Source: Rhizophagus irregularis (taxonomy: Eukaryota; Glomeromycota; Glomeromycetes; Glomerales; Glomeraceae). Taken from it: a stretch of DNA of 64,000 bases. How positions within the stretch are numbered: position 1 is the stretch's first letter; every line of letters begins with the position of its first letter. Where the stretch lies: positions 1,862,501-1,926,500 of the forward strand of contig NC_089456.1 in NCBI RefSeq assembly GCF_026210795.1. Reading direction: 5' to 3'. The position numbers and the translations under genes are program-made. Shown one piece after another: positions 5,528-60,430 of the stretch. The notes below the pieces were generated by a model. The model made no database searches and was not told where the DNA came from. It saw only the letters and a list, made by a program, of their open reading frames with translations.

Positions 5528-5983
5528 GTCTATTCTTTATATATACTGTATGTATTTTTAATTTGCTTTGATTTATATATAAAAATAAGAAGTATATTAT
5601 TTTGTAGTCCTTCTAATTCATTTTGTACTATTTCAATTTTGTCCAAAAAAACTTGCATTGAACGAAGATTTTAAAAAAATTATTTTACCAGTTGATTCCT
5701 CTTACTAGAAGTTGGTTTTAAATATTTATCTAACAGTCCACGAAACTGCGAAATTTTCAAATTTCTGAAAATTAGTTATGGAGACGCAAAGTAACTGAAA
5801 GATGAATAAAATAATACACAGTCAAAATATATTTGTTTTTCTTTTAGAAATACGTGCATACAGTTTCAAATGTCAATCTATATTTTGATCTGCATAATTT
5901 TTATTTTTAACAAATTTCCTCTTTAGCTAGAATATACATTATCCGACTTAAACCTCTGGATTTGAAAAGTAAAATTAGAAAAT
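5528..5983. other. Intergenic spacer
   Basis: AT-rich 3' flank of the broken channel gene; nothing recognisable. Confidence 0.4.
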
Positions 5984-5987
5984 TTAA

Positions 5988-7318
5988 TTCGTGATCCGTC
6001 TCCAAATCAGTGAATTCTACTAATACATTTCGGGGAGTTATTTTTGCAAATTAATTAGCAGGAAATTTAGATAAGAGCAACAGATATAACGGGCAGGAAC
6101 TGAAATGTGATGTGAACTTACAAAATTAGTAGAAGAAACTGACATTCCAATAGTATCCACCATTCAAAATTAGATATACCGTTCAGAATAAGCAAAATAT
6201 GATGCAATAAGCTAGACAGCCGGGCATTGCTAAATCTCACCGCAGGTGATTTTCACCGCACTAGCATTAGCAAATATTAATGGGCGGAGTTTCATGACAT
6301 TTTTAATTCTGCCCAAAATTCTACCCTAATTCTGGTGAGGTGACAATCACCGGCAGTGATATTTTAAAAATAAACTGTGATCGTTATAATTCTTGTAATT
6401 GTTTAATATAACGTTTTTAAAGGCCGAAATCCAGCGTTGCTAAAGAAAAAATTTTTAATTCCCTCAGTATTATAAATTTTCTTTTTATTTATTTTTTTTT
6501 TTAACTCCAGGCAAATGGGGGGAAATCTACGTTTTCATCATTTTGAGAAAAATGAAATTAACTTATTTGCAAGAAAAAACATTTTGCTTTCGTGCCGTCA
6601 GTTAAATTTGGTGGCTAAACTTTTATCCATATCATGTGACTTTACCTTCATCATTACGTCATAATATTGCTAAATAAGTCAATGATCTTCAAATAATCAA
6701 ATGATTGTCCCTATAGCAGTTATTTGATTTTTTTATTTCGATAATTTATTATGATTATCGGCATACAATATTAAGTGAAAATAGTGTACATTGATGGTTT
6801 ACACAATATAAGCCAAAAACCTCAAATTTGGTTTTGAGGCCCTTTTTAACTGATGCACGCCCAAATAGTTACACTATTTTTCATATGGGTTGTAATACAA
6901 ATTTGGCTACTTTCTAGGCAATATCACCAATTTGTATGTTGATTAAACTTATCCCTATAAAAAAGTTGATCCGTTTTTTATATTCCATTTTTTTCGTAAA
7001 AGGCTCATGTTTCCGGAATTAGTAACCTAATATCACGCAATTTATCAATTTATTTACATTTTCCATGAATAGATCCGTGAAAGGCTCATTTTTACAGAGT
7101 TTTTGCAAAAATAATGGATAAAATTTTTATAGGGGCTTGCAAAACTAATGTATGATGACGCAAATTTATCATACTTCAGAATATTATTCTGTAACATTTT
7201 TTTTAAAAAAAAAATTCTGGGCAAATTAGCTCAAAACCATTTAAGGGATAATTAATTTGCAAAAATGATTCCCTGAAAAATATTAGTAGTTTTCACTGGT
7301 TCGGAGATGGATCACGAA
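5988..7318. mobile_element. Non-autonomous TIR element flanked by TTAA
   Basis: Terminal inverted repeats of about 80 bp begin TTCGTGATCC (5988 inward; complement inward from 7318) and continue through CAGTGAA and TTTTTGCAAATTAATT on both sides. Each end abuts TTAA (5984-5987 and 7319-7322), the target duplication expected of piggyBac or Kolobok elements. Length 1331 bp, no transposase ORF. The interior has a CACCGCAGGTGATTTTCACC motif near 6238 that recurs at the ends of the foldback element at 32.8-35.7 kb. Confidence 0.65.
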
Positions 7319-8732: not shown

Positions 8733-9612
8733 TCCTTTTTCTGATCTAAGTAAAACATTTATCGTCATTTTTTACTGAAATAATTGTGGATCATTCCATA
8801 CCTAACAGTATTTACGTATGGCAGCTTCTCAGTTGAAAGAAAAATATGGGTTTTGGTTCCTTTTACCTTAATTGTTATTTTATTATTCTTCTTTTAATAC
8901 CCTTAGTTAGCCTAGACTCGTTTTCTGAGTGTGAGCTCTTTTTTACAAAGAGTGAACCCTTATGGGTGCGCATTTTTAACTTGCCTCAGTAATTGTATGT
9001 AATTATACCACTGGTTGACAATCTACACATGGTTAGTCATAGTGTAAATAAAATAAAAAAGATTAACGTCTCTTATAATCGTAACACAATTCTACGGAAT
9101 AAGACGGATAATAAAAGCTAAAAAGTTTCTAATATACAATAAATTAAAACTAAATTTAAGCTATTTGTGAAATTTGAACATATATTATTATGTAAATTTT
9201 TTTAGCAACGGTATGTGATATAATTGAATAAATGATCGGCAAATGATCATTCATAAAACAGCCGCTATGCTTCGGATAAATCGGATTAAATTAACCGGGT
9301 TTATAACATGTTTTCCTGATCAACAAATCCGTAAAAATATATGATGTGATCGGTATTACCTATTAGTAATAAAAATTGAAAATCAACTATCACTTATCTG
9401 GTTATGTAAATAAGATATTTGTAAGGCTGCATGTGAATATTTTTAGATATGGAATTAACGAAAAGTAATTAAACATAAATGGAGTAAAATCCCGAAATAT
9501 TTTGATCAATTCGTTCGATAAAAGATTCTCGATTTTTTTTTCTTATATATATACAAAGTCAAAACACTTTTCTTTTTTCATTATTCGTACTTTCAATCAT
9601 ATTTAATAAAAC
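8733..9612. other. P450 upstream region with a transposon-end relic
   Basis: No gene. From about 8991 onward it is the 5' part of the segmental duplication shared with 39.6 kb. Around 9217-9268 it holds a stretch with tandem ATGATCGGCAA and GCTATGCT, resembling the right end of the 24999-28585 transposon; the other duplicate lacks it, so it inserted or decayed here only. Confidence 0.45.
9544..9553 (+). promoter_or_regulatory. TATA-like box of P450 copy 1
   Basis: TATATATATA lies about 60 bp before the ATG, followed by a pyrimidine-rich leader, and is conserved in the duplicate at 40085. Confidence 0.4.
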
Positions 9613-11256
9613 ATGTTCTTAAAATCACTTTTATCTTTTGAAACTTCCACTATGAATTATTTTTTATTATTCATAATTGGATTGGTAACTTACGTCGGTT
9701 TATTTTATTATCGTTATTTTACTCGACAAAGTCCATTACCTGGTCCAATTCCTTTACCAATTATTGGTAATGTATTACAATATACTGGAGATGCCGGAAA
9801 ATTTGTAGAAGCATTACGATTAATTTATGGCGATATATTTGAATTTTATTCGGGAACCAGGAGAGTTGTATGTGTATGCCGATCAGAAATGGCCGGAAAA
9901 TTGTTTAATTCCCCATTGAGAGTACATTCAAATGATGGCTTGGACGAATATGGCATGAGCAATAAAGGAATTCTTTTTAATAGTGATTATGATAATTGGT
10001 CAACTCATCGTCGATTCTTACAAAAAACTATTGCTACACCTCAATCTTCCAAAGAAACGGTCGAATTTACTCAAACTTTATTTCAGGAAATGGAAAAATT
10101 ATGGAAACGAGTAGATAGTAATGATGGTGATGTTAAAGAAATTGATTTTACTGGATGGTTATCTCGATTTATATTTGAAAATATTTTATTTTTGATGACT
10201 AAATTGAGAGCACATGCGCTTACTAATTATTATAATGCGATAAATCCACAAAATAAAGTTGTGGAACCTGAAGGAACTATTCCAAAATCGCATTCTTATA
10301 TCGAAATCTTTAAAACAGCATTTGAAGGAGCTCATTTCTTTTTGCTCACTCCAAAATTATTAAGGAATTCTCCAGGAATGCGTGAAACAAGAAATCGTTT
10401 GTTGAGTAACAAGACTTGGGCGAGTACGAATCTCTTAAAAATTATTGAAGAGCGAAGAACTCAAATTGTAAAATCAAATGAAAAAATCGATAGTAATGAT
10501 CTTTTAACTAAATTCTTAACCGCTAATGAGAAAATTAGTGATGATGATATTAGAGCTACTATTATGGATCTTCTTTTAGGTGGAACTCTTACAACTGTAA
10601 ATACATTATCTGCCATCGTTTATTATTTAGGTCATAATCCTAAAGTACAGAAACGTATGGTACAAGAATTGGATGATGTATTGGGAAGTGATCGTGATAG
10701 TAACATCACTATTGATCAAGTAACTAAACTCGAATATACTGACGCTATCTTCAAAGAAGGTTTGTAATCTATTGTAATCTATTGTAATCTTATAGTATTT
10801 ATTGTTGTTATAAGACGGTAATAAATTCTTATTAATCTTTTATATTATATAAATTTAGCTTCCCGTTTATTCCCTACTATACCAGTTAATATACGTACTA
10901 ACGCGGAACCGAATGAAATTGCGGGATACAAATTCCCGGCCAAAACACAATTTTTGATTGACGTAGAAAGAATTCATCGATCACCCGACTACTGGACTGA
11001 TCCTGATACGTTCAATCCAGATCGATGGTTAAATAAATCCGACACTAAAATGTACAGTAGTTACTATCAATTTGGAGGTGGTGCACGTGAATGCCCAGGA
11101 AAGAAGATGGCTTTGGCTGAAGTGAAAACTTTAATAGCTTTATTATACAGGAATTATGATATAGAATTGGTGGACAAAGTTTCACCATTTAATTATAAGT
11201 ATGATCTTATTAAGATGGTTCAAGGACTTGAAATTAAAATTAAACCTAGAAATTAA
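9613..11256 (+). CDS. Cytochrome P450 monooxygenase, copy 1
   Basis: Two exons, 9613-10759 and 10859-11256, with a 99-nt GTTTGT...TTTAG intron; spliced product 514 aa, normal for a microsomal P450. Seen: N-terminal membrane anchor (NYFLLFIIGLVTYVGLFYY), proline-rich hinge (SPLPGPIPLPIIGN), helix K ExxR formed across the splice (KEASRLFP), FNPDRW, and the heme loop FGGGARECPG with the Cys thiolate ligand. The I-helix reads GGTLTT where most P450s have (A/G)Gx(D/E)TT, so the acidic residue is replaced by Leu. Predicted ER-bound, needing a reductase partner; substrate unknown. Compared with copy 2 it has unusual changes (Trp for Gly in SNKTWAS, Val-Asn for Ala-Ser after GGTLTT), suggesting relaxed constraint. 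Two ATGs occur (codons 1 and 14); the first is conserved in both copies. Confidence 0.9.
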
Positions 11257-11985
11257 AATTATAAAAAATAAGATCGTTAAGTAGTTATGACATTTTTAAA
11301 TATTGCTGTATCAAAACTTATAATGAATATTAATTTTCTTTTCTTTTTTTATTTAATAAAAATATTCAATGTATAGAGTAATAATTAAAGGACATTAAAT
11401 ATACAGTACTATTTTTATATAATCGATACAAATATTTGTTGTTATCCATTCTTATATAATCGAAACAAATTTATTTTTATCCATTTTTATATAATCGATA
11501 CAAATTTATTGTTATCCTATAATTATAAATATGCGCACGAGTAAATACTCGTAAATCATGTCACCCTATTCATATTCGAATTTCTTCTAAATTTGTAATT
11601 TTTGTAAATGTAGCAAACATTTCTCAAAATGTAGAAAGACCCTGCATAAACTTTCTGCTATTGTTGATGATCGGCCCACTGAATAGTGCTGGATTATACT
11701 TGCCGCCCAAATAAATGGGATGGGAATCCCATCCCAAATTTTTCTTACGATGGCCAGAAATAATGCGATCGGCAAAGCAACAATTCTCCTTTTTGAAATT
11801 TGTGCAACGTCACGGGACGTAACGAGGACGGATTGGATTTAATGTATAAATGGGTTGATGTTGTGAGATGCCGATTTGCGTCAGCTGTGCGTCAGGCCTA
11901 GTAATGCTGGTCAACCTACTTAAGGCATTAATAATATTGGCAATATCGGGCCGATAATATAGGCCGGCGTCGGTACAACATTTAT

Positions 11986-16782: not shown

Positions 16783-16885
16783 ATGCGTAAAAGTTGTCTT
16801 TCAACAACTAAACCATTCTCTTTGCGCGAAGGTGCAAATTTTTCTGGACGCAATATTCTTTCAAGAAATAAAAATTTTAGTTCGT
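16783..16885 (+). pseudogene. Conserved short first exon, unit A (1-nt insertion)
   Basis: Encodes MRKSCLSTTKPFSLREGANF in frame, then shifts because of one extra base compared with the intact 102-nt version at 21450. It ends at a GTAAGT donor at 16886. Conservation of ATG, reading frame and donor between units suggests this was a coding exon; family not recognised. Confidence 0.45.
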
Positions 16886-16910
16886 GTAAGTAAAAGTATA
16901 TTAGCCTGGA

Positions 16911-17028
16911 CTAGTGCTCCAGATCGGATCAGATCATAACACAAGAAAATCTGATCCGATCTGAAAAGATTCAGATTTTTTTTTTTAAAAAAAAAAAATT
17001 TTATTTTTTTATTTTTTTAAAAACCCTT
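16911..17028. repeat. Truncated GATC-rich transposon end
   Basis: TAGTGCTCCAGATCGGATC resembles the terminal repeat plus subterminal GATCCGATC motifs of the hAT-like element at 33520. Only one end is visible, followed by an A/T run; it separates the unit A first exon from the mini-exon array. Confidence 0.4.
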
Positions 17029-18370
17029 TCCTGGACGAACGGACGCAGGATGACCAAGATTTAAAAGAATGAACTAGGTAAGTTCATTTCTTTTTTTTTG
17101 TTATTTTTACTTGAGAAAACATAATTAAAGGTTCCCTTCTTTTATATTAGGAAGCCTGGACGAACGAAGCCTAACGACCAGGATTTAAAAAAAAAGAACG
17201 AACCTATGGTAAGTTTGTTTCTCTTTTTTAAGGTTTTTTTTAATTTTTTTATTTAAGGGAACGTAATTTAACATTTTCTTTCTTTTTTTTTTAGGAAACC
17301 TGGACATGGATGAAGTCGTTGACGACCAGGATTTAAAAAAAGAATGAACTATGGTAAGTTCATTTCTTTTTTTTGTTTTTTTTATTTTTACTTAAGGGAA
17401 CGTAATTAACGTTCCCTTTCTTTTTTTTTAGGAAACCTGGACGAACGAAATCGTTAAGACGTTAACGACCAGGATTTAAAAAAAAGAATGAACTATAGTA
17501 AGTTCGCTTCTTTTTTTTAAGTTTTTTTTTTATTTTTACTTAAGGGAACGTTAATAACGTTCCCTTTCTTTTATTTTTAGGAAACCTGGATGAACGAATC
17601 GTTAAAATGTTAACGACCAGAATTTAAAAAAAGAACGAACTATGGTAAGTTCATTTTTTATTTTTATTTTTATTTTTTTTACTTGTGGGAACGTAATTAA
17701 CATTCCTTTCTTTTATTTTAGAAAACCTGGACGAACGAAATCGTTAAGACGTCAATAACCAGGATTTAAAAAAAAAAGAACGAACTATGGTAAGTTCATT
17801 TTTTTATTTTTATTTTTATTTTTTTTACTTGTAGAAATGTAATTAACGTTCCCTTTCTTTTTTTTTAGAAAATCTGGACGAACGAAATCATTAAGACATT
17901 AACAACCAGGATTTAAAAAAAAAAGAATGAACTATGGTAAGTTCATTTTTTTATTTTTATTTTTATTTTTTTTACTTGTGGAAATGTAATTAACGTTCCC
18001 TTTCTTTTTTTTTAGGAAACCTGGATGAACGAAATCATTAAGACGTTAACAACCAGGATTTAAAAAAAAAAGAACGAACTATGGTAAGTTCATTTTTTTA
18101 TTTTTATTTTTATTTTTTTTACTTGTGGGAATGTAATTAACGTTCCCTTTCTTTTTTTTTAGGAAACCTGGACGAACGAAATTGTTAAGACGTTAACAAC
18201 CAGGATTTTAAAAAAAGAACGAACTATGGTAAGTTCATTTCTTTTAAGTTTTTTTTTTATTTTTACTTAAGGGAACGTAATTAACGTCCCCTTTCTTTTA
18301 TTTTTAGGGAACCTGGACATGAGACGAAGGTAAACGACCAGGATTTAAAAGAATGAACTATGGTAAATTC
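17029..18370 (+). repeat. Mini-exon-like tandem array, 10 units
   Basis: Ten units of about 137-149 bp. Each holds a 54-68-nt core opening GAAACCTGGACGAACGAA and ending AACTATG, bordered downstream by a GTAAGTTC donor-like site and upstream by a poly-T tract ending TTTAG. Inferred core starts: 17151, 17295, 17432, 17581, 17722, 17869, 18016, 18163, 18308, with a first partial core near 17029. Just before the pyrimidine tract most spacers carry an 8-bp stem GGGAACGT/ACGTTCCC. All three frames of a typical core contain a stop (ATTTAA or GTTAA), so the cores are not simply coding. Confidence 0.7.
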
Positions 18371-18870
18371 ATTTTTTTAATTTAGATTATTTAGATTTAT
18401 TTACTTTCAGTAATTGTTATTAACTTTTCACTTCTCTTTCTGTGAACTTTAGAATGCGATTTTTTTATTAATTCTATACACTTTATTACGCATCAACAAC
18501 AAAGATCGATACATACATATGAAAGTAGATTAACATATCTAAATAACACAAAATCTTCTGACAATACCAGTTGATACTAACCAGAAAAAAATTACCCACG
18601 ATAAATTTTTTCTAACTAACGTTAAGACAACTATATGGAAAGTATATATATCATCGCTAACATTTATCACTTAAACACCTTATTACCTAATCCACTTTCT
18701 ATATACGAAAAAAAAAAATCTATCTATATTTCTATGAGACATCCAAGTGCCTGCGAATAATTTGATAACATCCATTTAATGAACGCGTCGATCGGTAGAG
18801 AGGTGTTATTTACGAGCTTCATAGGAAAGATGAAGTGTTTTTCTTTTTTCTTCGAAGGTATGTACAGTAG
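18371..18870. other. 3' flank of array A
   Basis: AT-rich, no gene recognised. The 62-codon minus-strand ORF at 18912-18724 shows no family features and straddles the start of the repeat block. Confidence 0.4.
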
Positions 18871-19810
18871 ATAGGGAGTAGGGACACATGACATAGGGAT
18901 TGTGTTTACCATATGACAAATTTTCTTTAAGCAATGTTGATAATGGATTTGTCTTTTCTTGAGGAGTTGAAAGGTTTTGAACCATTCATGTTCTAGTTTC
19001 CATATATATTGGTAAATAGTGTCCTGTAATTATTGGAAATATTTGTATTAGGAGCATCCGTAAAATTTCAAAAAAAAACGCTGAAGGGACGAATTACGTA
19101 GGATAAGTTCGACCAGAAATTATTTCTTACGTATTATTAGGAGAGACTGTAGTAAAATGCACCAGATACTTCCTACAATCAGTACATTTTACATCTCCGT
19201 TAGCCAGCTAGGACACCATCGCCACGAGGTTCCACATTCGGGTCCCAAAAATACTGCAGTAAAGTTTCTGCCCAATCAGCTTGGCTGACTACACCACCTA
19301 ATCATGCATCCCATTCAAATTTATTTCCCAGGTCTCGTTCATGAGAACTTGGCGCAATTTTGCTGCGCCATACTTAACGATTTTTGGAATGTGATCGGAC
19401 TCATATCTATGAATTTGTTATTATATATTTAATGTATTTACTGTGAATTTACTATATATTTACTGCAATTTGTTATATATTTATTATGTATTTACTATGA
19501 ATTCTCTATATACTTATTATATATTTACTGCATATTTATTATAAAGTTAATACAAATTTTCTATGAATTTCTACATGTTTAATGCAAATCACATATATCA
19601 TTACTTTAAATCATTTATACAGTTTCTAGCTAACATTTATATAGTTTCTTTATATTGGCGATACAATTTCTATATTATGACGATAATCTACTATATATTT
19701 TCTATGTTAAATACATACAACTGCATTAGAATTAACATAGAATAGCCGTACGCCTACTATGTTAAGTGGCGGCAGCCGGCAGCATGGCTACTACATAGTC
19801 GTGATTTCAT
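18871..19810. repeat. 3' block of large unit A, with unoccupied insertion sites
   Basis: Collinear with 24975-24998, 28586-28768, 29097-29674 and 29919-30120. It preserves three empty target sites: ACATGACAT (near 18893-18901) for the 3.6 kb transposon, TCCATATA (18999-19006) and CTTTAAAT (19604-19611) for two hAT-like MITEs. No ORF of note; contains TATATTTACT-type tandem runs. Confidence 0.75.
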
Positions 19811-21449: not shown

Positions 21450-21551
21450 ATGCGTAAAAGTCATCTTTCATCAACTAAACCTTTCTCTTTGCGCGAAGGT
21501 GCAAATTTTTCAGATGCAATATTTTTTCAAGAAATAAAAAGTTTAGTTCGA
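21450..21551 (+). CDS. Putative conserved first coding exon, unit B (34 codons)
   Basis: Exactly 102 nt, phase 0, from ATG to a GTAAGT donor at 21552. Encodes MRKSHLSSTKPFSLREGANF followed by SDAIFFQEIKSLVR. The same exon occurs in unit A with one inserted base, so frame and donor appear to have been under selection. A possible second exon (near 21707, ending at GTAGGT) continues the frame for 10 codons, after which the third exon-like segment meets a stop, so the full gene may be dead or spliced differently. No recognisable domain. Unspliced the ORF would run to 21674. Confidence 0.4.
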
Positions 21552-22210
21552 GTAAGTAAAAGTATATTAGACTGGAGCTTCGATATTATCCTTTCTCTTT
21601 CTCCTTTCCTTCATTCTTCCTTTTCCTTTCTTTTACTCTCTTTTTTTTCAAATCTTCTTGGAAATGGATCTTAATAAAGGTTACTAATGCTTGTTTCTTT
21701 TTTTAGGCTTTTTTTTATTGTTGGGCGCAAAATTTGGTAGGTAAAACACTTCTTAATTTATTTGTTAATTAGAAAAAAATCTTTTTAACGCTTTTTTTTT
21801 TTACTTTTTTAACGAAACAATTACTAAAGTTTTATTTTTTTCCTTTTGTAGACGATATACATATTTAATTAGATGCATGAAAAATTTGGTAGGTAAGATT
21901 TTCTTACCATTTATTATTTCTTTTGACGAAATGGTCACTAACGTTTCATTTATTCTTTCTGTATCTTCGAATATTTGGATGTATGGAAAGTATTGTTCTT
22001 TAACGAAACATTTACTGAATACTAATGTTTCAATTTTTCTGACTTCATTAGGGTCTTTGGACGTGTAAATTACGGTATGTTTTGTTTTTATATTCTTAAA
22101 CTTCTTTATTTTAATGAAACATTAACCTAACAATTTTATTTTTCATTATTTTAGATGAGTCTTTGGCTCTTTGGATGCGAGTGGTGTTCTCTTAGGTAAG
22201 TTTTTTTTTT
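21552..22210 (+). repeat. Diverged mini-exon-like cluster, unit B part 1
   Basis: At least four exon-like segments follow the first exon. Each is entered through poly-T...TAG (near 21706, 21852, 22051, 22154) and left by GTAGGT, GTATGT or GTAAGT. Cores share TTTGGACG/TTTGGATG, as in the other arrays, and spacers carry GAAACAATTACTAAAGTTT-type imperfect inverted repeats before the 3' site. Confidence 0.5.
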
Positions 22211-22259
22211 ATTTTTATCGATTTTAATTTTTTTTCATTTATTTATTTATTTTATTTAC

Positions 22260-24369: not shown

Positions 24370-24860
24370 AGTTCTTTTTTTTTATTTATATACTAATTTT
24401 TTTTTTTAGGTTTTTTTCTTTCAGATACGTGAAAATTTGGTAAGAGGAGGAAGGAGAATGTGTATTCTTCGTGTTATTCATTAACTGGATGAAGTGTTTA
24501 TTAAACATCTTGATTTTTCCTTTATTTAGAAGGTTTTCTGGATTTCTTTGGACGCGCTCTTTGGCATTTTGATTTGGGATTTCGGTAAGACCTTTTAATT
24601 AATTTTTCATTTTTAACAAACTTTATTAGCAGTTCTTTTCTTTATCTTTTTTTAATATTTTTTTTTGTAGGTTTGGGTTTGGGACACTGGAACGAAACTG
24701 ATACTAAGACTTGGACACGTTTAGTAAGTTTCATGACATGTAAACTTACTTTTTTTTAATTTTAATTAGAAACTTTTATTAATGTCTCTTTTCTTCCTTT
24801 TGTAGGTTTCGGTCTTTTTGGGGGTGATTAAAAAGTGAAATGGACGAAATTTGTAGAATC
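24370..24860 (+). repeat. Diverged mini-exon-like cluster, unit B part 2
   Basis: Exon-like segments end at GGTAAGAG (24440), GGTAAGAC (24582) and AGTAAGTT (24723), entered through pyrimidine tracts ending in CAG, TTTAG or TGTAG. Cores share TTTGGACGCG, ACTTGGACACG and similar. Followed by GGCTTACAATGGTTCCTATT, which recurs after the 59.8 kb array (near 60662), suggesting a shared 3' end. Confidence 0.5.
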
Positions 24861-24998
24861 TAGATGCGTGGTGGGTTCTTTAATGAAATGATCGCTCTGG
24901 GCTTACAATGGTTCCTATTTCCTAGTTTACTAAGGGAAGCTGAAGTGGTTTCTTTTTCTTCAAGAATACGTGGATAGGTAGATAAGGACACATGACAT

Positions 24999-27900
24999 AG
25001 CATAGCGAACTTGCTTTATATCACTTTGCCGATCATTTGTCGATCACAATTTTCATTTTATTAAAAAATGATTAAATTATGAAAAAGTGCATAGCAAAAT
25101 AAATGCCTAAATAAGAAAAAAATAAAATATGCCACCTTTATTATTGTATAACATTAAATTAAATAATTTATAATATAATTTTTAATTTCTATATGCTAAA
25201 TTATTAATATGTGATAATTTGAAGTTTCAGCCGATTATTGGATAAAAATTGAAGGCCGAAGCCGAATACGCAAATTTGAAACTTGAAATTTTGCATGAAC
25301 ATCCCTTTTAGTATATATAATCTATAAAAAAAAATAATGCAAGGTTTTGGCCCATAATGCAGGTGTTTTGCTTATAGAGAAATTAGCCAATTATTTGTTA
25401 TTGATATATTTCTAATAAAAGGACAAACTTTTTGTTTTGATCTCAGAAATACAAGAATAAATTATTTTGTTTATTAGTTTTCCCATATATTAAACCAAAT
25501 TCTGCTAGAATTATCATTATTTTTTTTTGCTTTATTAGTAATTCATTAAAATGTCAAATAATAATAATACACGAATTTGTGAATTTGATTCTAATGAATG
25601 TAATGGAAGAATTTATAAAGTTGGAGATAAAGTATCAATTCCAGAGACAAATATTGGGTTAATTTCATGTGAAATGTTTCTTTGTATGTTCCATTACAAT
25701 AAGTTTATTCTTAATGAAAATCATAGATTACAAAAAATGCTACAAGTTTGTTCTCATCCAAAACATCAAATTTATCTTAATCAGTCAAATAAACAAACAA
25801 ATTCTAGCTTAATTAATATTCCAAAAAGACTTATCAATGTTTTAGGATTAGATGAAAAATCTAAAATTTGTGATAGATGTAGAAAAAACACTGATAAAGA
25901 TCCAGAATATCTACAAACTGAAGAATATCAAGCACCAATTCCAATTAAATCAAATAATCAAGATAATATAACAAAAATTGGAACTCATACTTATGCATTA
26001 AGGAATGATATTTTATATACTCAAGCAGAATTAAAACAATTAGAACTAGATTATCAAGAGATTATTTCACAAATATCAATTCCATATGAAGTAAGTTTAA
26101 GTGAAAAGATTAAAAAAATGTCTAATATTTTATATAAAAATCAACATCAATTAAATCAAAAACCTATTTATAATCCCATAGTTTTTAAAGAAATGCTAGA
26201 AACAGCTGATAAAGATTTAATTGGTTTTTTTGATGAATTATATGCTGGAACTAATCCTAATACTAAATGTGATAAAACAAATGAAAATAATAAGAAAAAA
26301 TTGGTTTCTTTATGCTATTTTTTAGCCAGTATTAATAACAAATATATCAATGGACTCAAAGCTGATATTGGATCATATCTACAAACTGCTGGAGCATCAG
26401 CATCTTCAATTGATACTCTTAGTAATTTAGGATTTTCAGTTACAAGGAAAACTGTAAATCAACAAAAATTATTGATTGCAAATGAGCATCAAGAAACTGT
26501 AGATAATTATTGTTTACAAAATATTGAAAAAATGTTTTTTCTTAATATTGATGATTATCATAACATTCACAGAAGGAATCAACCAACTTTAATACAAACA
26601 CATAACATATTTCATTTTGTAACCATTTTATTAAATTCAAATCCCAATATTCTTAAAATATCTGCTTACTCATCTAACAATACTTCAGTTCATAATCCTA
26701 TAGGAGTTGATTCTAAACTAATTATTAAGAATTTTAATGAAATCTTTATGAATAAATTAAATAGTTGTTATTATGAACAAAATGAAATATGGAAACAATT
26801 TTTAATAGAAGATTCTTATGAAAATAGAATGGAATTATTTACTGTTCATAATTATGATGGCCGTATTCAAAATCATCAAGAATTAAGATCTATGATTAAT
26901 AGTAAGCTAATAGATTTTGTTTTACATCCTTTACATAGTACAAAGGATTATATTGAATGTGCAAATCTTTTATTTAAGGTTTTTGAGAAACTTAAAAATA
27001 ATAATGAACAAGATTATTTAAGTGATTGTATTATTCCTACAATTTGTGATTGGCCAGGGCAGGTAAATATTAGAAGAGCTATAACATTAAGAAATAATAA
27101 AGGATCAGAATCTGGAATTCCTCTGGAAATATTAAGTTTAATTCCTATAATTGGTCCACTTCATATATCTCTTAATAGTAGAGAAACATTATTTCAAACC
27201 TATCATTTCTTTTTTGAAATGCTATATCATAATTTATTTGGAGAAAAAAAAGTTTTATCACAAAAACCAAAACAGACTATAATCAATTTTATATTAAACT
27301 TAACATTTCAAGGCTGGAAAAAAATTTGTAATGTTGTTATAAATCGTTTTGAAAATTCCAAAGATGCAGAATATAGAATGATGATGGATTTATTAGATAA
27401 TTCTATACCTCTTACTTTAGATATTTATGCAGTTCTTTTTAGAAGTGGATTTTTTGAAGGATATTTAGAAGGTGTTGTAAGAATTTGGGTACTATTTCAA
27501 AGATTAAGAAGACATAATTATAATAAGGCACCACTTATATTTTTAAGTGATATATTTTATTGGACCTCAAATAATCATCCAATAATTGATATTTTAAAAA
27601 ACCATTTGCCAATTTTTAATGATTATTTTGTTGAAAATTTCCATAGTTCTATTAGAAACCAAACAGCTGAATCTAATTCTATACAACAAATTATTCAAAA
27701 AGCAAAAATCATTGATGCTGAAAGGACTAATAATTTGTCTTTTAAAGAAGCTTTTATTAATTTAAGAAATCCAACTACTTTTAAGACTAAATTAGATTAT
27801 TTAGAAAAAAAGACTTCATTATTTTTATTATCTCTATTTGATGATATTTATCATAATATGGGAAATACACAACAAATTAATAGAAACAAATATCCAAATT

Positions 27901-28585
27901 TTAGTCTTCCAACTTTTAATATTAATGTTGATGTAAAAATCCTTCCATTAGCTTGGAATACACAAACTAAACCCTCTGATAACAAATTTTGTGATGCAGA
28001 AAAATGCTTATTATTATTAAGTAATAATTCAAATTTAGCTAATAATAATAATAATATTGTTTTAACATGTGGACATGCCTATCATAAACAATGTTTGGAC
28101 TTATTAAAGGGTAATTGTGAGTATTGTTTTAATTATTTATCTTTAAATATTGAAAAGAATATTACTAGCTTAAAAAAAAGATTATTTACACCATTAAAAG
28201 ACAATGAAAAACCTTTAGTTGAAGATGAAGATAATGATAGTTTAAGTGAAAATAATAATGATGAGAATATTGAAAATATTTTAGAAGTAATAGAAAGTAA
28301 TATAGATAATCAGTTTGAAATATTATACCAAACATGGTTAAATTATTAGTATTATAATATAATTATTAGTATTTGTATTAATTTTATGTTTTATATAAAT
28401 TTTCTTTAATTAAAATTAAATTTTTGTGAAGTTATCTGTAAATTTTAAACATTTGTTATGTTTATTATTGTGTAAAATTAATATGTTACGGCATTTGTAT
28501 TATGTGATAAGATCAAATAAATGATCAGCAAATGATCGGCAAATGATCGGCAAAATTGTGATAAAATAGAGATGTTCGCTATGCT
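24999..28585 (+). mobile_element. Complete TIR DNA transposon (3587 bp) with intact gene
   Basis: Left end AGCATAGCGAACTTG and right end (inverted) AGCATAGCGAACATC begin imperfect TIRs of about 50 bp; both include TTTGCCGATCATTTG repeats. A 9-bp duplication ACATGACAT flanks it (24990-24998 and 28586-28594), and the unoccupied site survives near 18893. One ORF of 932 codons fills most of the interior, with AT-rich flanks. Nine-base duplications are usual for Mutator-like elements, but the protein is not an obvious MULE transposase, so I leave the superfamily open. Confidence 0.85.
25551..28349 (+). CDS. Putative transposase-like protein with N-terminal Zn-binding region and C-terminal RING-H2 finger
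   Basis: Uninterrupted 932-aa ORF inside the TIR element. N-terminus is Cys/His-rich (CEF..C, CEMFLCMFHYNKF, CSHPKHQ, CDRCRK), probably zinc-binding. The central region has acidic motifs spaced like a DDE/RNase H-fold transposase: FFLNIDDYHNIH (about residue 330), ICDWPGQ (about 500) and FVENFHSS (about 695). I infer, but cannot prove, that these supply D, D and E. The layout recalls the DUF6589/KDZ-like proteins common in fungi. Residues about 820-865 fit RING-H2: FCDAEKC, then LTCGHAYHKQC and CEYC, a ubiquitin-ligase type finger or a DNA/protein-binding zinc module. The tail is acidic and Asn-rich. Codon use is as AT-rich as its surroundings. Intact frame suggests a recent, possibly active copy. 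Confidence 0.7.
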   Translation: MSNNNNTRICEFDSNECNGRIYKVGDKVSIPETNIGLISCEMFLCMFHYNKFILNENHRLQKMLQVCSHPKHQIYLNQSNKQTNSSLINIPKRLINVLGLDEKSKICDRCRKNTDKDPEYLQTEEYQAPIPIKSNNQDNITKIGTHTYALRNDILYTQAELKQLELDYQEIISQISIPYEVSLSEKIKKMSNILYKNQHQLNQKPIYNPIVFKEMLETADKDLIGFFDELYAGTNPNTKCDKTNENNKKKLVSLCYFLASINNKYINGLKADIGSYLQTAGASASSIDTLSNLGFSVTRKTVNQQKLLIANEHQETVDNYCLQNIEKMFFLNIDDYHNIHRRNQPTLIQTHNIFHFVTILLNSNPNILKISAYSSNNTSVHNPIGVDSKLIIKNFNEIFMNKLNSCYYEQNEIWKQFLIEDSYENRMELFTVHNYDGRIQNHQELRSMINSKLIDFVLHPLHSTKDYIECANLLFKVFEKLKNNNEQDYLSDCIIPTICDWPGQVNIRRAITLRNNKGSESGIPLEILSLIPIIGPLHISLNSRETLFQTYHFFFEMLYHNLFGEKKVLSQKPKQTIINFILNLTFQGWKKICNVVINRFENSKDAEYRMMMDLLDNSIPLTLDIYAVLFRSGFFEGYLEGVVRIWVLFQRLRRHNYNKAPLIFLSDIFYWTSNNHPIIDILKNHLPIFNDYFVENFHSSIRNQTAESNSIQQIIQKAKIIDAERTNNLSFKEAFINLRNPTTFKTKLDYLEKKTSLFLLSLFDDIYHNMGNTQQINRNKYPNFSLPTFNINVDVKILPLAWNTQTKPSDNKFCDAEKCLLLLSNNSNLANNNNNIVLTCGHAYHKQCLDLLKGNCEYCFNYLSLNIEKNITSLKKRLFTPLKDNEKPLVEDEDNDSLSENNNDENIENILEVIESNIDNQFEILYQTWLNY

Positions 28586-28768: not shown

Positions 28769-29096
28769 TAGAACTTAGACTCGAGTCAGGATGAGTCAAC
28801 TCGAGTAAAACGAATCAAGAATTTTTTTGACTCAAAGAGTACTCGAGTCTAGGACTCGAGTCAGAACTCGAGTTAACTCGAGTTAATTTGAGTCAAAAGT
28901 TAAAGTGCGGGCCAAAAAAATTATCCATAATTTTATTCAGACCGTTATAGTCATAGTGCTGGCAGGAATTACAAATAGGGTTCAGCTGGCACTATCAACC
29001 ACGTGATCCCGGTTGACTCGAGTCAAGAAATTTCTGACTCGAGTGCGAGTTCAACTTGAGTCAACTTGAGTTACATGAGTGCGAGTTCAAGCTCTA
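28769..29096. mobile_element. hAT-like MITE rich in CTCGAGT
   Basis: Ends TAGAACTTAGACTCG and (inverted) TAGAGCTTGAACTCG; 8-bp duplication TCCATATA on both sides (28761-28768, 29097-29104). The empty site TCCATATATATTGG is at 18999. Interior packed with palindromic ACTCGAGT and variants, probably subterminal binding motifs. Noncoding. Confidence 0.75.
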
Positions 29097-30120
29097 TCCA
29101 TATATATTGGTATAGTGTCCTGTAATTATTGAAAATATTTGTATTAGGAACATCCATGAAATTTCAAAAAAAAATGCTGAAGGGACGAATTACGTAGGAT
29201 AAGTCTGACCGGAAATTATTTCTTGCGTATTATTAGGAGAGACTGTAGTAAAATGCATCAGACACTTCCTACAATCAGTACATTTTACATCTCCGTTAGC
29301 TGGCTAGGACACCAGTTCTGCATTCGGTCCCAAAAATATTGCAGTAAAGTTTCTGCCCAATCAGCTTGGCTGACTACACCACCTAATCATACGTTCCATC
29401 CAAATTTATTTCATGAGAACTTGGCGCAATTTTGCTGCACCATACTTAACGATTTTTGGAATGTGATCGGACTCATATCTATGAATTTGTTATTTGTATT
29501 TACTGTGAATTTACTATATATTTACTGCAATTTGTTATATATTTATTATGTATTTACTATGAATTCACTATATACTTATTATGTATTTACTGCATATTTA
29601 TTATAAAGTTAATATAAATTTATTATAAATTTACTACATGTTTAATGCAAATTATATATATCATTACTTTAAATTAAGGTTGCTTGCCAAAACCTAGGGG
29701 TTTAGGCAAGATGGCATTTCACCGAAAAGCGAAATTCTGCCGAAACTATATTAAAGTTATATTAAAAAACTGGCGAAACTTTAGAAAAAGGCGAAACTGC
29801 CGAAACTTATTATCAATGCCGAAACTGCCGAAACTCTGCCGAAACTATAATAAATCTATATTAAAATTTTGATGAAACTAATTGTAGGATTTTGAAGAGG
29901 TTTAGACAAGCAACCTTACTTTAAATCATTTATACAGTTTCTTGCTAACATTTATATAGTTTCTTTGTATTAGCAATACAATTTCTATACTATTACTATA
30001 ATTTACTACATATTTTCTATATTAAATACATATAACTGCATTAGAATTAACATAGAGTAGCTGTACGCCTACTACATTAAATGGTGGCAGCATGGCTACA
30101 GCCACGATTTTATAGGTTTC
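29097..30120. repeat. 3' block of large unit B
   Basis: Second copy of 19003-19810, broken by the MITE at 29675. A 127-codon ORF here (29223-29606) reads through repeat sequence that is not conserved in frame in the other copy, so it is not called a gene. Confidence 0.65.
29675..29918. mobile_element. hAT-like MITE (244 bp) with GCCGAAAC repeats
   Basis: Ends TAAGGTTGCTTG and its exact complement; 8-bp duplication CTTTAAAT (29667-29674, 29919-29926); empty site at 19604-19611. Interior is a short array of GCCGAAACT and GGCGAAACT units. Confidence 0.8.
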
Positions 30121-32308: not shown

Positions 32309-33519
32309 TACTAACTTATGAATTATTGTATAATATATTATTATATTTAAACTACAGTATATATTTTATACAAATATTTTTATTAATAAAATTATTAGTT
32401 TTTTCAAAATAAAACAATTTAAATTTTAATAAATTATGTAATATAGGTGAACTTTACCTTGGGTAAATTTCACCACTGGTGAGCATTAAAATCACTCTTT
32501 AATTTAATTTATATTAATATTAAAGGAACTGAGTAAACTAAATTGAATAGTGTAATATTAGAATAAAATTGCAGTTAATTAATTTGCTGATCAATAAAAT
32601 TTTTTGTCAATGAACATAATAGAGGTCATCATGTGATATTTTTTTTTAATTAATTTAATGAAAAAATGTTGCAAAACGTTTTTTCAAAGTATTTTTAATT
32701 GAAAAAAAGTTTTCACAACGTTTTTTTAATTAATCCCCTTTTTTATTAGCAGATCTTTTTTCTTTACCAGACAGATTTATATATTTTTATTATTAGCTCT
32801 AATGATCATTTATATTCATTAGCAGATCTGCTAAAACTCACCGCAGGTGATTTCACCAGTCAAATTATAATTCCAGCCAAATTCAATTGTGTAACCTAAT
32901 AAAAAGTTTTTGATTTTTTTTAGTTACAATGTGGTACAAATATTGCACTAATGGATCCAGAAGATACCCGTTTATAAGTAAATATGCAGTTAAATTTGTG
33001 TAACCTCACTGAATAAATCACTTTACTTAAGAAATCTATTTCGTAATGGTCAAAAGTGGTCTATTTGACCTTAAAAGTGGCAAAAGTGACCATCAGCTAC
33101 CTTAATTGATGGTCAAAAGTGGTCATATAGCACATAGGAATTTTTCAAAAATTTTCTGTTTGGTTATACTAATAATTGGTAGTTAAAGGCGAGGGCATAT
33201 TTGACCATCAATTAAGGCAGCTGATGGTCACGTTTGACCACTTTTAACCATCAATTAAGGTAGCTGATGGTTATATTTGACCACTTTTAAGGCCAAATAG
33301 ACTACTTTTGACCACCAATTAAGGCAACTGATGGTTATTTGACCATCAATAAGGTCAAGTTTGACCACTTTTAAGGTCAAATAGACCACTTTTGACCATT
33401 ACGAAATAGATTTCTTAAGTAAAGTGATTTATGCAGTGAGGCTACACAAAATTTAACTGCATATTTGATTATAAATGGGTATCTTCTGAACTTATTGGTG
33501 CAATTTTTATACCACATTG

Positions 33520-35563
33520 TAGTGTTCCGAAAAAAATCTGATCCGATTCATATCCGCGGATCTGATCCGAAACGGATCGGATCAGATCAGCTTTTTTATG
33601 ATCCGTGATCTGATCCGAATCAAAAAAATTTGATCCGTTTTGGATCGAATCGGATCAGATCAGTTATTCATTCAAATCGGATTGGATTGAATCAGATTTG
33701 AACGGATTCGGATCGGATCCAGATCGGATCCGAATCTTAGAAAATAAAAAACGTTTTGCGCAATGTTTTTTATTAAGACAATTAAAAACCGTTGTGAAAT
33801 GGTTCTTTTTTGTTAAATAAACCGTTTCGCAACGGTTTTTATTAAAATAATTTAAAAAACCGTTGCGAAATGGTTCTTTTTAGTTAAATAAACCGTTTCG
33901 CAATGGCTTTTATTAAAATAATTTAAAAAACCGTTGTGAAACGGTTCTTTTTAGTTAAATAAACTGTTTCACAACAGTTTATACTAAAACAATTTAAGAA
34001 ACCGTTGCGAAACGGTTCTTTTTTATTAAATAAACTGTTTCGCAACGGTTTTTATTAAAACAATTAAAAAAACCGTTGCGAAACGGTTCTTTTTAATTAA
34101 ATAAACCATTTCGCAATGGTTCTTTTTAATTAAATAAACCGTTTCACAACGGTTTATATTAAAACAATTAAAAAAACCGTTGCGAAATGGTTCTTTTTAA
34201 TTAAATAAACCGTTTCACAACGGTTTATATTAAAACAATTAAAAAAACCGTTGCGAAACGGTTCTTTTTAATTAAATAAACCGTTTCGCAACAGTTCTTT
34301 TTAATTAAATAAACCGTTTCGCAACGGGTTTTTATTAAAATAATTTAAAAAACTGTTGCGAAACGGTTCTTTTTAGTTAAATAAACCGTTTCGCAACGGT
34401 TTATACTAAAACAATTTAAGAAACCGTTGCGAAATGGTTCTTTTTTGTTAAATAAACCATTTCGCAACAGTTTTTATTAAAATAATTTAAAAAACCATTG
34501 TGAAACAGTTCTTTTTAATTAAATAAACTGTTTCGCAACGTTTTATATTAAAACAATTAAATAAACCATTTCGCAACGGTTTATATTAAAACAATTAAAT
34601 AAACCATTTCGCAACGGTTTAAGTTAAAAAACCGTTGCGAAATGGTTCTTTTTTGTTAAATAAACCATTTCGCAATGGTTTTTATTAAAATAATTTAAAA
34701 AACCGTTGCAAAACGATTCTTTTTAATTAAATAAACCATTTCGCAACGGTTTATACTAAAACAATTTAAGAAACCATTGCGAAACAGTTCTTTTTTGTTA
34801 AATAAACCGTTTCGCAATGGTTTATACTAAAACAATTTAAGAAACCGTTGCGAAATGGTTCTTTTTAATTAAATAAACCATTTCGCAACAGTTTTTATTA
34901 AAATAATTTAAAAAACTGTTGCAAAATGGTTCTTTTTAATTAAATAAACCGTTTCGCAACGGTTTATATTAAAACAATTAAAAAACCGTTGCGAAATGGT
35001 TCTTTTTAATTAAATAAACCGTTTCGCAACGGTTTATATTAAAATATTTTAAAAAACCGTTGCAAAACAGTTCTTTTTAATTAAATAAACCGTTTCGCAA
35101 CGGTTTATATTAAAATATTTTAAAAAACCGTTGCAAAACGGTTCTTTTTAATTAAATAAACTGTTTTGCAACGGTTTATATTAGAACAATTAAATTTTTA
35201 ATTAAATAAACCGTTTCGCAACAGTTTTTATTAAATTCGTTAAAAAACCGTTTCACAACAGTTTTTTTTGTTTAAATTGAAATAAAAAACGTTTCGCAAC
35301 ATTTTTTATTAAATAAATCTTTAAAAAAACGTTGTGAAACGTTTTTTTAACTTCTGATTCGGATCAGATTCAGATCAGATCGGTTTTATCCGAATTGGAT
35401 TCAGACCGAATCGAATCAAGCTCATTTTGGATTCAGATCGGATCGGATCCAATTATTTTTGATCCGAATTCGGATCAGATCAAATCCAACTTTTTTTGAT
35501 CCGAATTCGGATCAGATCGGATTCATCTCAAATCCGATCTGATTCGATCCGTTCGGAACACTA
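33520..35563. mobile_element. hAT-like element (2044 bp) with internal satellite
   Basis: Perfect 12-bp ends TAGTGTTCCGAA and complement, 8-bp duplication CCACATTG (33512-33519, 35564-35571). The uninterrupted site is visible, inverted, in the left foldback arm near 32926-32933. Both subterminal regions are packed with GGATCCGATC/GATCAGATC motifs, and the centre is a hairpin satellite. No transposase, so non-autonomous. Confidence 0.75.
33776..35345. repeat. Satellite of alternating inverted AACCGTTGCGAAACGGTT hairpins
   Basis: About 22 units of roughly 70 bp. Each has AACCGTTGCGAAACGGTT and then its reverse complement AACCGTTTCGCAACGGTT, separated by AT spacers (TTTTTAATTAAATA and TATATTAAAACAATTAAA). 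Each motif is a 7-bp stem with a GCGA or TCGC loop. Most differences between units change CG to TG or CA. Confidence 0.85.
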
Positions 35564-35757
35564 CCACATTGTTACTAAAAAAGCCAAAACTTTTTATTAG
35601 GTTGTACAATTAACTCCAGCTTGAATTATAATTTGGCCAAAATAAAATCACCTGTGGTAAACATCACCTGCGGTGAGATTTAGCGAATAAAAATGATCAT
35701 CAGAGCTAATAATAAAAAAATACAAATGTGTCTATTGAAGAAAAAAGATCTGCCAAT

Positions 35758-36300: not shown

Positions 36301-37030
36301 GTAAAATCTACAAAAAAGAAAATAAAAAAAAACATTAATAAACGTTTCTAATTAAATATGAAATAAATTAATTAAAGTTTCACAAAAAAACTTACCATTT
36401 CAATATCCAGTATCCAAATAGTCTTAGAGCCTACAAGAAAAAAAGAAAAGAAATGTTAAACATTTTTGAAAAATGAAAAGAGGTAAGTTAAGAAACTTAC
36501 CAGTTACGAAAAGGTAAAACAAGTTCTGAAGTTATACTTCAAAACCTACCGTTATCCATTAAGGCTGGAGATTCTACAAAATGAATAAAGAAACAGTATG
36601 TTTCTTTAAAAAAGAAAAATTTAAAAAAAAGAATTGAACACTAGACCGAACCTACAAAAAAATAATAATAAAGAACGTTAAAAACATTCCTTTACAAAGC
36701 AAAAAAAAAATATTTTAAAGTCTTTACCAAATCATATTTTGAAATCACCCTGTAATAACAATCCAAGATTGAAGTCAGAAGGAGGCATCTACAAAAAAGA
36801 ATAAAGAAATATTGATAAAACGTTTTTAGAAAACCAAAAAGATAGCTTCTTCAAAGCCTACCTGGCATTCCAACCCAGAATTGAAAGCTAAAGGAAACTT
36901 ACAAAAATAAATAAAGAAATATACCATTTTTTTAAAAAATTAAAAAAAAAGTTTTGAAGTTTCAAAATGAAACTTCAAAATCTAATCGTGTAGTAACTGG
37001 TCAGAAGGAATCTGGAGAGTGCCTACAAAA

Positions 37031-37742: not shown

Positions 37743-38010
37743 CTACAAAAGAATAAAAGAAGAAACGTTAGTATAATGTTTCTTACTATTAGAAAAAAAT
37801 AAAATAAAAAAAAATTGTTTCGCAACATTTTGTTGCGAAACTTACCATTTCAAAATTCAACGTTCTGAAGTTTCCAAACTGAAACACTTAAATCTACAAA
37901 AAAAAAAGAGAAACATTAGATAATGTTTCCTACAAAAAAAAATAAAAATAAAAAAAATTGTTCCGCGAAACTTACCATTTCAAGTTTTGACAAAACACTT
38001 AAACCTATAA

Positions 38011-39332: not shown

Positions 39333-40084
39333 AATATCATTAACATTAAATAACTTGCAGAAATTTATCGATAAAATTTTTAACACTTAATACCATTAAA
39401 TATCTTTCAGATAATTATCAATAAATAACATTAATGTTAAATATCGTTATATTTTTCCAGTTATTTATCGATAATCATCATAATACGTTAATTATCGATT
39501 TATTCGGTATGATAAAATGGGATAATTATTGATAAAGTGATAATTATCGATGAATATCTCCTATAAAAATTTCCCGATGTTAGTTAGTCTGTTTTCTACT
39601 ATGTAATTGTATGTAATTATACCGCTGGTTGACAGCCTACAAATGGTTAGTCATAGTGTAAATAAAATAACAAAAAAATAAAAAAGATTAACGTCTCATA
39701 ATTATAATCGTAACATAATTCTTACGGAATAAGACGGATATAAGTTGATCCAGTAATTGGCTAATTTTTATAGTGACCAATTAAATTTCAACCAAATAAA
39801 TTGATCGGATAAATCGGATTAAACCGGATAAATTAACCGGGTTTATAACGTGTTTTCCCGATCAACAAATCCGTAAAAAAATATGGTGTGATCTTACCTA
39901 TTAGTAATAAAAATTGATAATCACTTATCTGTTATGTAAATGAGATATTTGTAAGGCTGCATGTGAATATTTTTAGATATTGTTATTGTATGAATTAACG
40001 AAAAGTAATTAAACATAAATGGAGTAAAATTCCGTAAATATTTTGATCAATTCGTTCGATAAAAGAGTCTCGATTTTTTTTTCT

Positions 40085-40094
40085 TATATATATA
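40085..40094 (+). promoter_or_regulatory. TATA-like box of P450 copy 2
   Basis: TATATATATA about 60 bp before the ATG, same position as in copy 1. Confidence 0.4.
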
Positions 40095-40153
40095 CAAAGT
40101 CAAAACACTTTTCTTTTTTCATTATTCGTACTTTCAATCATATTTAATAAAAC

Positions 40154-41797
40154 ATGTTCTTAAAATCACTTTTATCTTTTGAAACTTCCACTATGAATTA
40201 TTTTTTATTATTCATAATTGGATTGGCAACTTACGTCGGTTTATTTTATTATCGTTATTTTACTCGACAAAGTCCATTACCTGGTCCAATTCCTTTACCA
40301 ATTATTGGTAATGTATTACAATATACTGGAGATGCCGGAAAATTTGTAGAAGCATTACGATTAATTTATGGCGATATATTTGAATTTTATTTGGGAACCA
40401 GGAGAGTTGTATGTGTATGCCGATCAGAAATGGCCGGAAAATTGTTAAATTCCCCATTGAGAGTACATTCAAATGATGGCCTGGACGAATATGGCATGAG
40501 CAATAAAGGAATCCTTCTTAATAGTGATTATGATAATTGGTCAACTCATCGTCGATTCTTACAAAAAACTATTGCTACACCTCAATCTTCCAAAGAAACG
40601 GTCGAATTTACTCAAACTTTATTTCAGGAAATGGAAAAATTATGGAAACGAGTAGATAGTAATGATGGTGATGTTAAAGAAATTGATTTTACTGGATGGT
40701 TATCTCGATTTACATTTGAAAATACTTTATTTTTGATGACTAAATTGAGAGCACATGCGCTTACTAATTATTATAATGCGATAAATCCACAAAATAAAGT
40801 TGTGGAACCTGAAGGAACTATTCCAAAATCGCATTCTTATATCGAAATCTTTAAAACAGCATTTGAAGGAGCTCATTTCTTTTTGCTCACTCCAAAATTA
40901 TTAAGGAATTCTCCAGGAATGCGTGAAACAAGAAATCGTTTGTTGAGTAACAAGACTGGGGCGAGTACGAATCTCTTAAAAATTATTGAAGAGCGAAGAA
41001 CTCAAATCGAAAAATCAAATGAAAAAATCGATAGTAATGATCTTTTAACTAAATTCTTAACCGCTAATGAGAAAATTAGTGATGATGATATTAGAGCTAC
41101 TATTATGGATCTTCTTTTAGGTGGAACTCTTACAACTGCAAGTACATTATCTGCCATCGTTTATTACTTAGGCCATAATCCTAAAGTACAGAAACGTATG
41201 GTACAAGAATTGGATGATGTATTGGGAAGTGATCGTGATAGTAACATCACTATTGATCAAGTAAATAAACTCGAATATACTGACGCTATCTTCAAAGAAG
41301 GTTTGTAATCTATTGTAATCTATTGTAATATTATAGTATTTATTGTTGTTATAAGACGGTAATAAATTCTTATTAATCTTTTATATTATATAAATTTAGC
41401 TTCCCGTTTATTCCCTACTATACCAGTTAATGTACGTACTAACGCGGAACCGAATGAAATTGCGGGATACAAATTCCCGGCCAAAACACAATTTTTAATT
41501 GACGTAGAAAGAATTCATCGATCACCCGACTACTGGACTGATCCTGATACGTTCAATCCAGATCGATGGTTAAATAAATCGGACACTAAAATGTACAGTA
41601 GTTACTATCAATTTGGAGGTGGTGCACGTGAATGCCCAGGAAAGAAGATGGCTTTGGCTGAAGTGAAAACTTTAATAGCTTTATTATACAGGAATTATGA
41701 TATAGAATTGGTGGACAAAGTTTCACCATTGAATTATAAATATGATTTTATTAAAATAGTTCAAGGACTTGAAATTAAAATTAAACCTAGAAATTAA
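40154..41797 (+). CDS. Cytochrome P450 monooxygenase, copy 2
   Basis: Exons 40154-41300 and 41400-41797, intron of 99 nt at the same position as copy 1; product 514 aa. Same domain order: N-terminal anchor, SPLPGPIPLPIIGN hinge, GGTLTTAST I-helix (again no acidic residue), KEASR across the splice, FNPDRW, FGGGARECPG heme loop. About 15 residues differ from copy 1. At the differing sites I could compare with general P450 conservation, copy 2 looks closer to typical (Gly rather than Trp in SNKTGAS, Ala-Ser after GGTLTT), so this is probably the better functional copy. ER membrane monooxygenase, substrate unknown. Only the exon 2 C-terminal part shows as a stand-alone ORF; the upstream part of exon 2 is open through the splice. 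Confidence 0.9.
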
Positions 41798-59789: not shown

Positions 59790-60430
59790 TAGATAAACAA
59801 GATTACCTGATAATCTTTTTTATGTTTCTTTTTCGGCGGACTGGAACAGTGAGTACAGTACATATATTTTTTAATTGACTTCAAAGAAATGTTTCTGACG
59901 ATTTATTTCATATTTTTTTTTTTCTAGGGTTTCCGGATTAATTGTACATACCGGACTTTAAAGATAAATTGAAAGGAGAAGGGTTTTTTTTATTTGTTTG
60001 ACTTTAAAGAAACGTTTCTAACGTTTCATTTTTTACCTTTTTTATCTAGGGATGCCAGGTTTTTGTACATGCTGGACTTTTAAAGGTAAATTAGGAAGGG
60101 AGCTTTCTTATTTGTTTAACTTTAAAGAAATGTTTCTAACGTTTCATTTCTTATTTTTTTTCTAGGGATTCCGGATTTCTTGCACACATTGGACTTTAAA
60201 GGCAAATTAAGTAAATTGAGGGAGGAGAGGCATTTTTTTATTTGTTTGACTTTATAGAAACGTTTCTAACATTTCATTCTTGTTTTTTTTCTAGGGACGC
60301 CAGGATTTTGTAAACACTGGACTTTTTAAAGGTAAATTGGGAAGAGCGAGTTTTTATATTTATTTGACTTTAAAGAAATGTTTCTAATGTTTCAACTTTA
60401 TTATTTTTTTGTAGGAACATAGTTTAAACT
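59790..60430 (+). repeat. Mini-exon-like array, 5 units of about 120 bp
   Basis: Cores start GGRNNCCNGGNTT after TTTTCTAG or TTGTAG (near 59930, 60050, 60168, 60295, 60414) and end TGGACTTTAAAG before GTAAATT or a variant. Spacers carry AAAGAAACGTTTCTAACGTT just before the pyrimidine tract. Some cores are open (MPGFCTCWTFK), others have stops. Same design as the arrays at 17.0, 21.6, 24.4 and 36.3 kb. Confidence 0.65.

Follow-up and report, generated by a model that had tools for sequence, protein, structure and literature searches.

Non-autonomous hAT transposons (Ac/Ds-like elements and hAT MITEs) are characterized by terminal inverted repeats (TIRs), 8-bp target-site duplications (TSDs), subterminal repeats and a partner with transposase domains. 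Ds1 of maize is a hAT element with three splice donors and two splice acceptors (PMC5432752), and two-thirds of the transposable elements of Rhizophagus irregularis are described as unclassified (PMC11075540). Here we present an analysis of a 64,000-nt stretch of the R. irregularis genome (C28:1862501-1926500, hereafter referred to as the window), with searches covering 146,748,485 bases on 32 contigs. A tandem array of exon-like units in this window is almost certainly the interior of a non-autonomous hAT transposon rather than a separate gene, and its family shares the features named above with the non-autonomous hAT elements. The parts of the window are listed in Table 1.

The array comprises ten cores within 17052-18336, as the original prediction had proposed from the DNA letters, and TAG ends all ten of its spacers, again as proposed. 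GTAAGT donors are present in nine of the ten units, unit 10 having GTAAAT instead, and the cores, put at 54-68 nt beforehand, measure 55-68 nt in the nine window exons with both borders found. Other particulars required adjustment. An 8-bp stem that had been attributed to most spacers is perfect in two of the ten window introns, recognizable with at most three mismatches in six and missing in two. Stops in all frames, claimed for the cores in general, occur in seven of nine scored window exons but in only 49 of 144 exons across the family (21 loci), where 74 exons leave a single frame open and 21 leave two open. The natural unit also proved to be bigger than first described, and begins at the left inverted repeat (16912). 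Introns of the window array are 73-90 nt long, and TRF delineated a repeat at 17172-18318 with a period of 147, 7.9 copies and 87% matches. A scan for chains of linked intron-like units joined nine introns by rule over 17208-18452; the reversed window, the complemented window and 40 shuffles yielded no chain of two or more. The splice grammar in the window exceeds chance. In the copies counted, arrays contain 4-12 units, with mini-exons mostly of 53-68 nt and introns of about 80 nt.

Table 1. Features of the window (positions counted from its first letter)
Feature	Position	Strand	Basis or remark
Putative coding first exon, ATG 16783, donor GTAAGT 16886-16891	16783..16891	+	Unrelated repeated sequence, neighbour outside the element
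Non-autonomous hAT remnant: left TIR, shortened subterminal region, array	16912..18452	+	TIR search, alignment to genomic copies
Left terminal inverted repeat TAGTGCTCC	16912..16920	+	
Subterminal region (GATC-rich, shortened) with a T/A-rich stretch, like other copies	16921..17028	+	By eye against L002, L007
Ten exon-like cores and ten intron-like spacers, last spacer diverged	17029..18452	+	Unit table, chain scan, TRF
Intron-like spacer, perfect GGGAACGT/ACGTTCCC stem around TTAAC	17354..17431	+	Unit table
Second intron-like spacer with perfect stem	17498..17580	+	Unit table
Third exon-like cluster, 3 introns chained	24439..24805	+	Chain scan
Sister hAT element, related TIRs, 71-bp palindromic array without splice design	33520..35563	+	
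Exon-like chain of 2	36308-36500	-	Chain scan
Exon-like chain of 2 with branch hairpins	37743..37975	-	Chain scan
Second exon-like array, family F2, 3 introns chained at 60085-60414	59875..60414	+	

The identity of the element was established from its copies. Genome-wide, the array was matched at least 56 times (40 of 121 candidates scored). Among the 20 array copies that were fetched, 15 possess both TIRs (TAGTGCTCC...GGAGCACTA) and five a single end only. The two-ended, array-bearing copies are 1508-2003 bp long, and perfect, identical 8-bp TSDs flank 14 of the 15. The exception, L015, has both TIRs without a TSD, and its left TIR match may derive from another element. The left-end pattern occurs at 89 genome sites with at most one mismatch, its reversed control at none. 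Eight further TIR sites picked from these 89 all have a matching right end, with an exact TSD in seven and a TSD agreeing in seven of eight letters in the other. The interiors at these eight sites are never the splice-like array: six sites are short elements of 670-773 bp in all, and two hold a palindromic array. At two of the 89 sites hAT transposase matches occur nearby, in both cases degraded. L038 has the same TIRs at both ends and the TSD GTTACTAA, and includes a match to PF05699 with one in-frame stop; fragments of its sister L037, for which no right end was found, match zf-BED, hAT-like_RNase-H and Dimer_Tnp_hAT. The sister element in the window is flanked by the TSD CCACATTG at 33512-33519 and 35564-35571, and has two close relatives elsewhere in the genome (L062 and L063). 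One set of hAT ends thus encloses at least four interiors, that is, the splice-like array, a palindromic array, short filler and transposase sequence. The element family has the features of the hAT superfamily (8-bp TSDs, short TIRs and relatives with transposase domains), and the TIRs of the array-bearing element are of the TA(G)NG type, which we take to be the hAT consensus.

The window copy is a remnant of this family and lacks the full set of two TIRs and a TSD: no right TIR was found in the window, and no TSD is demonstrable. Both of its flanks are shared with L001 (86% and 90%), indicating that the window copy was duplicated along with its surroundings in a segmental duplication. The ATG-started exon upstream belongs to a different repeat, which has 11 genome matches, and its 36 amino acids have no match in Pfam. 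Three of its relatives (L033, L034 and L036) show no array in the inspected stretch after the exon; that the array follows the exon in both the window and L001 reflects duplication of the region together with the exon. At 21450-22250, a second copy of this exon (ATG 21450) precedes an exon-like cluster of another kind, as judged by eye. Elsewhere in the window, a block containing a P450-like gene is duplicated (9272-11985 and 39814-42517, 94.4% identity; open reading frames 9610-11256 and 40151-41797, named from their translation), and a dispersed repeat (18985-19611 and 29086-29674, 88.7% identity) ends in an AT-rich tail of TATTTACT units. A 935-aa open frame at 25542-28349 terminates in a RING-like cysteine/histidine stretch, and the region from 47.4 to 64.0 kb holds several related long tandem open reading frames, F-box-like as read from their translations, with pairwise DNA identities of 72-83%.

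An alignment covered 157 unit segments drawn from 21 loci. The closest relative of the first unit is a first unit elsewhere at all 21 loci, last units are closest to the last units of other loci at 14 of the 21, and for 141 of the 157 units another locus is no more distant than the unit's own. Units are therefore matched by position between insertions, and the array has been copied or moved as a block.

From the family of the window array (F1), 159 introns of 67-86 nt were extracted. GTAAGT is the donor in 139 of these and TTTAG the end in 158, counts that are biased upward because the extractor demands GT-like donors and T-rich, TAG-like ends. A host baseline of 25 chaperonin-gene introns (median 75 nt, GTAAGT in 2, TAG in 15) allows a rough comparison, as its borders were chosen by a script. 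A branch-site-like YTRAY lies within a hairpin in 136 of the 159 F1 introns, 18 of 24 introns of the second array family (F2) and 7 of the 25 host introns. The F1 hairpin score is 9.12, versus 4.2 for shuffled sequences and 5.1 for the 25 host introns (P 5e-7), and that of F2 is 7.48; the host introns scored the same as their own shuffles (5.08 versus 5.04). A hairpin excess was also seen in F4 (P 0.004, n=3) and F5 (P 0.035, n=2), and was without significance in F3 (P 0.29, n=6) and F6 (P 0.35, n=4). Spliced exon-exon junctions were sought as genomic DNA with two patterns at up to two mismatches and found zero times for F1 and zero times for F2, the unspliced exon-donor pattern serving as a positive control (384 sites genome-wide, 7 for its reversed control). 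Retrocopied spliced transcripts were rejected on this count. As evidence against splicing the missing junctions are weak, since DNA transposons have no RNA intermediate and need not leave such junctions behind.

The design had been said to recur in four other clusters of the window. Four further chains were indeed recovered, two on the plus strand and two on the minus strand, whereas a fifth cluster, at 21.7-22.2 kb, was recognized by eye only. Stems like GAAACATTATCTAATGTTTC surround a branch-like site in the minus-strand chains at 36308-36500 and 37743-37975. Behind the F2 array, at 60656-60686, lies a Helentron-like 3' end (2 mismatches), and a decayed one lies behind the third cluster at 24895-24925 (5 mismatches); six shuffles contained none. 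There are 62 genome matches to the F2 array. Among eight F2-array loci, four have both ends (left GTCCGGAGCGAAGCG, right ...CCGTTTCCTAG), two the right end only, one the left end only and one neither. The base outside F2-type ends is T in 9 of 9 cases on the left and 11 of 11 on the right (13 loci, with both ends in 8), and the right end occurs at 176 genome sites, compared with none for its reversed control. Three short copies of this backbone, about 235 bp in length, carry no array. PF14214 has 90 matches genome-wide, counted irrespective of F2 ends. In these sequence features the F2 backbone may be likened to a Helentron HINE, though its repeat spacing differs. F1 and F2 units align with a score of 66 (P 0.008; 500 shuffles, best 76), host introns reaching at most 56, and the two kinds of unit may have a common origin. 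Visual inspection picked out further arrays of this kind flanking L038 and inside L036; the L038 hAT element is nested in another exon-like array (1-371 and 5738-6301) with the unit GTTTGGCCATTCAGG... and TACTAAC in a hairpin.

Taken as a whole, the locus is probably explained by a non-autonomous hAT element that carries a splice-like array as cargo. A hAT transposase supplied in trans by other elements would recognise the TAGTGCTCC/GGAGCACTA termini and the GATCTGATC-rich ends, and cut-and-paste transposition with 8-bp target duplications would spread the whole element, the array travelling as a block. Each unit consists of a mini-exon followed by an intron with GTAAGT, a YTRAY stem-loop, a T-tract and TAG, and the hairpin loop would place the branch site beside the T-tract. 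Should a sense transcript run across the element, the spliceosome could use these sites to produce a string of short non-coding exons rich in hairpins, in which the spliced product would link GAACTATG to GAAACCTGG over several units; in the window, the upstream-exon donor at 16886 would join the array acceptors. We give even odds that the cell actually splices the units. A broader proposal, which we regard as rather unlikely, is that hAT and Helentron-like transposons carry, and may have exchanged, a splice-competent mini-exon cassette whose branch site sits in a hairpin, and that its transcription would give a spliced and structured non-coding RNA of benefit to the element; if so, the cassette RNA might help, for example, by making insertions in genes tolerable or by reducing silencing.

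The array could instead be neutral satellite cargo, amplified inside the hAT element, with a splice-like appearance inherited from ancestral intron-containing DNA and not used, and we consider this a serious possibility, although it falls short of an even chance. The same hAT ends hold an array without splice design at 33520-35563, L062 and L063, and tandem arrays are common in published non-autonomous elements (PMC7492417, PMC4067079). The original prediction was to be given up if the borders drifted as fast as the rest of the unit and no spliced transcripts used them; what was found answers to half of this, in that conservation at the splice borders does not significantly exceed that of the other columns. 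Private changes amount to 0.0007 in donor and acceptor columns versus 0.0035 elsewhere (P 0.054), and shared changes to 0.021 versus 0.034 (P 0.25). In the hairpin columns compensatory change is nearly absent, and one-sided, G-U or CpG changes predominate. CpG transitions, at 0.11 per site, resemble those of decaying DNA; at 0.29 (other copies 0.02-0.19), the window copy is the most CpG-decayed of the array copies. CG methylation has been reported at transposons in R. irregularis (PMC8647823). However, the complete grammar is retained across sequence-divergent units and in at least two backbones, and four non-CpG branch-like columns show zero shared variants, both of which argue against neutral cargo.

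A host gene for a multi-exon noncoding RNA, of which the transposon copies would be captured derivatives, is improbable. The units do come in an order of first, middle and last types, and F1 folds well: exon and intron hairpins have z values of -3.2, -3.1 and -4.3, the value of -4.30 being that of a spacer from L002, and exon strings fold better than shuffles with z of -1.3 to -7.2 (21 loci, 15 shuffles each). Yet none of the 20 fetched copies is without transposon features, the left TIR still begins the window and L001 copies, and the exons of F2, F3 and F4 fold no better than shuffles (F2 exons z -0.14 and 0.66; F2 intron z -0.94). Nothing in the window reached the gathering score of an Rfam model, and a known structured RNA family was rejected there on the same ground. 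Least probable of all, to the point of being barely credible, is that the units form a coding repeat gene or, behind a conserved first exon, a reservoir for exon shuffling. It would fit the ATG-started exon with GTAAGT upstream of the array, and the second window copy of that exon, which also precedes an exon-like cluster. Against it, exon lengths spread over the three modulo-3 classes (77, 38 and 29 of 144), and the longest stop-free run in joined exons is 32-63 aa, never above shuffles (21 loci, P 0.32-0.95); a coding repeat gene was rejected on the frame and open-run tests, and relatives of the upstream exon lack an array in the inspected stretches. SP7-like effector genes with repeat exons were also considered and show no link to the array: for them PMC11333574 mentions a single conserved intron ahead of the initial repeat rather than a separate exon for each repeat. 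An intronic snoRNA host gene was likewise considered, from the literature alone, and set aside. Finally, the element might be an introner that itself becomes a new intron upon landing in a gene. It is a DNA transposon with splice sites, and introners with inverted repeats are known (PMC7789003); the element, however, holds many complete introns separated by exons rather than one, and we think this reading very unlikely. As to the three explanations offered by the original prediction, the repeat that mimics splice sites came nearest, as mobile-element cargo with donor, YTRAY, T-tract and TAG, and the multi-exon noncoding RNA is possible as a reading of the sequence. The reservoir behind a coding first exon was not borne out, as joined exons have no above-chance open frame and the exon is a separate repeat.

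Recognizing a non-autonomous hAT element with splice-like cargo identifies one such unclassified repeat, defines its ends, assigns it a probable transposase and shows several interiors sharing one set of hAT ends. Should the arrays be spliced, every insertion would add a ready exon string, a natural test of the effect of transposon-borne splice sites on genes and silencing; otherwise, gene finders would still predict false multi-exon genes at the arrays. A literature search, covering main texts of openly available papers, retrieved no description of such arrays in R. irregularis and no case of arrayed complete mini-exon units, with a hairpin at the branch site, occurring in two backbones.

The array element differs from other non-autonomous hAT elements in that its interior consists of tandem splice-like units. 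It is like maize Ds/Ds1 exonization in being a hAT element bearing several splice donors and acceptors; it differs in that the putative sites are distributed over 4-12 units in tandem, where a stem-loop accompanies the branch-like site. Among HINEs (DINE-1 and oyster Cg_HINE; PMC4067079, PMC7492417), F2 finds its likeness in inverted repeats near both ends and a 3' palindrome, and equally in T on both sides, a central tandem array and no TSD seen. The inner repeat of F2 lies 23 nt from the 3' end, compared with about 38-60 in PMC4067079, and its array differs by the splice grammar. Introner elements likewise combine mobility with inverted repeats and signals for the spliceosome, whereas the array element has many introns and exons per element. 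The internally symmetrical stwintrons of Hypoxylaceae are also multiplying fungal introns with internal symmetry, but the array introns are carried inside a DNA transposon. Tandem arrays within non-autonomous elements are known, and the splice-like mini-exon cargo is what is unusual.
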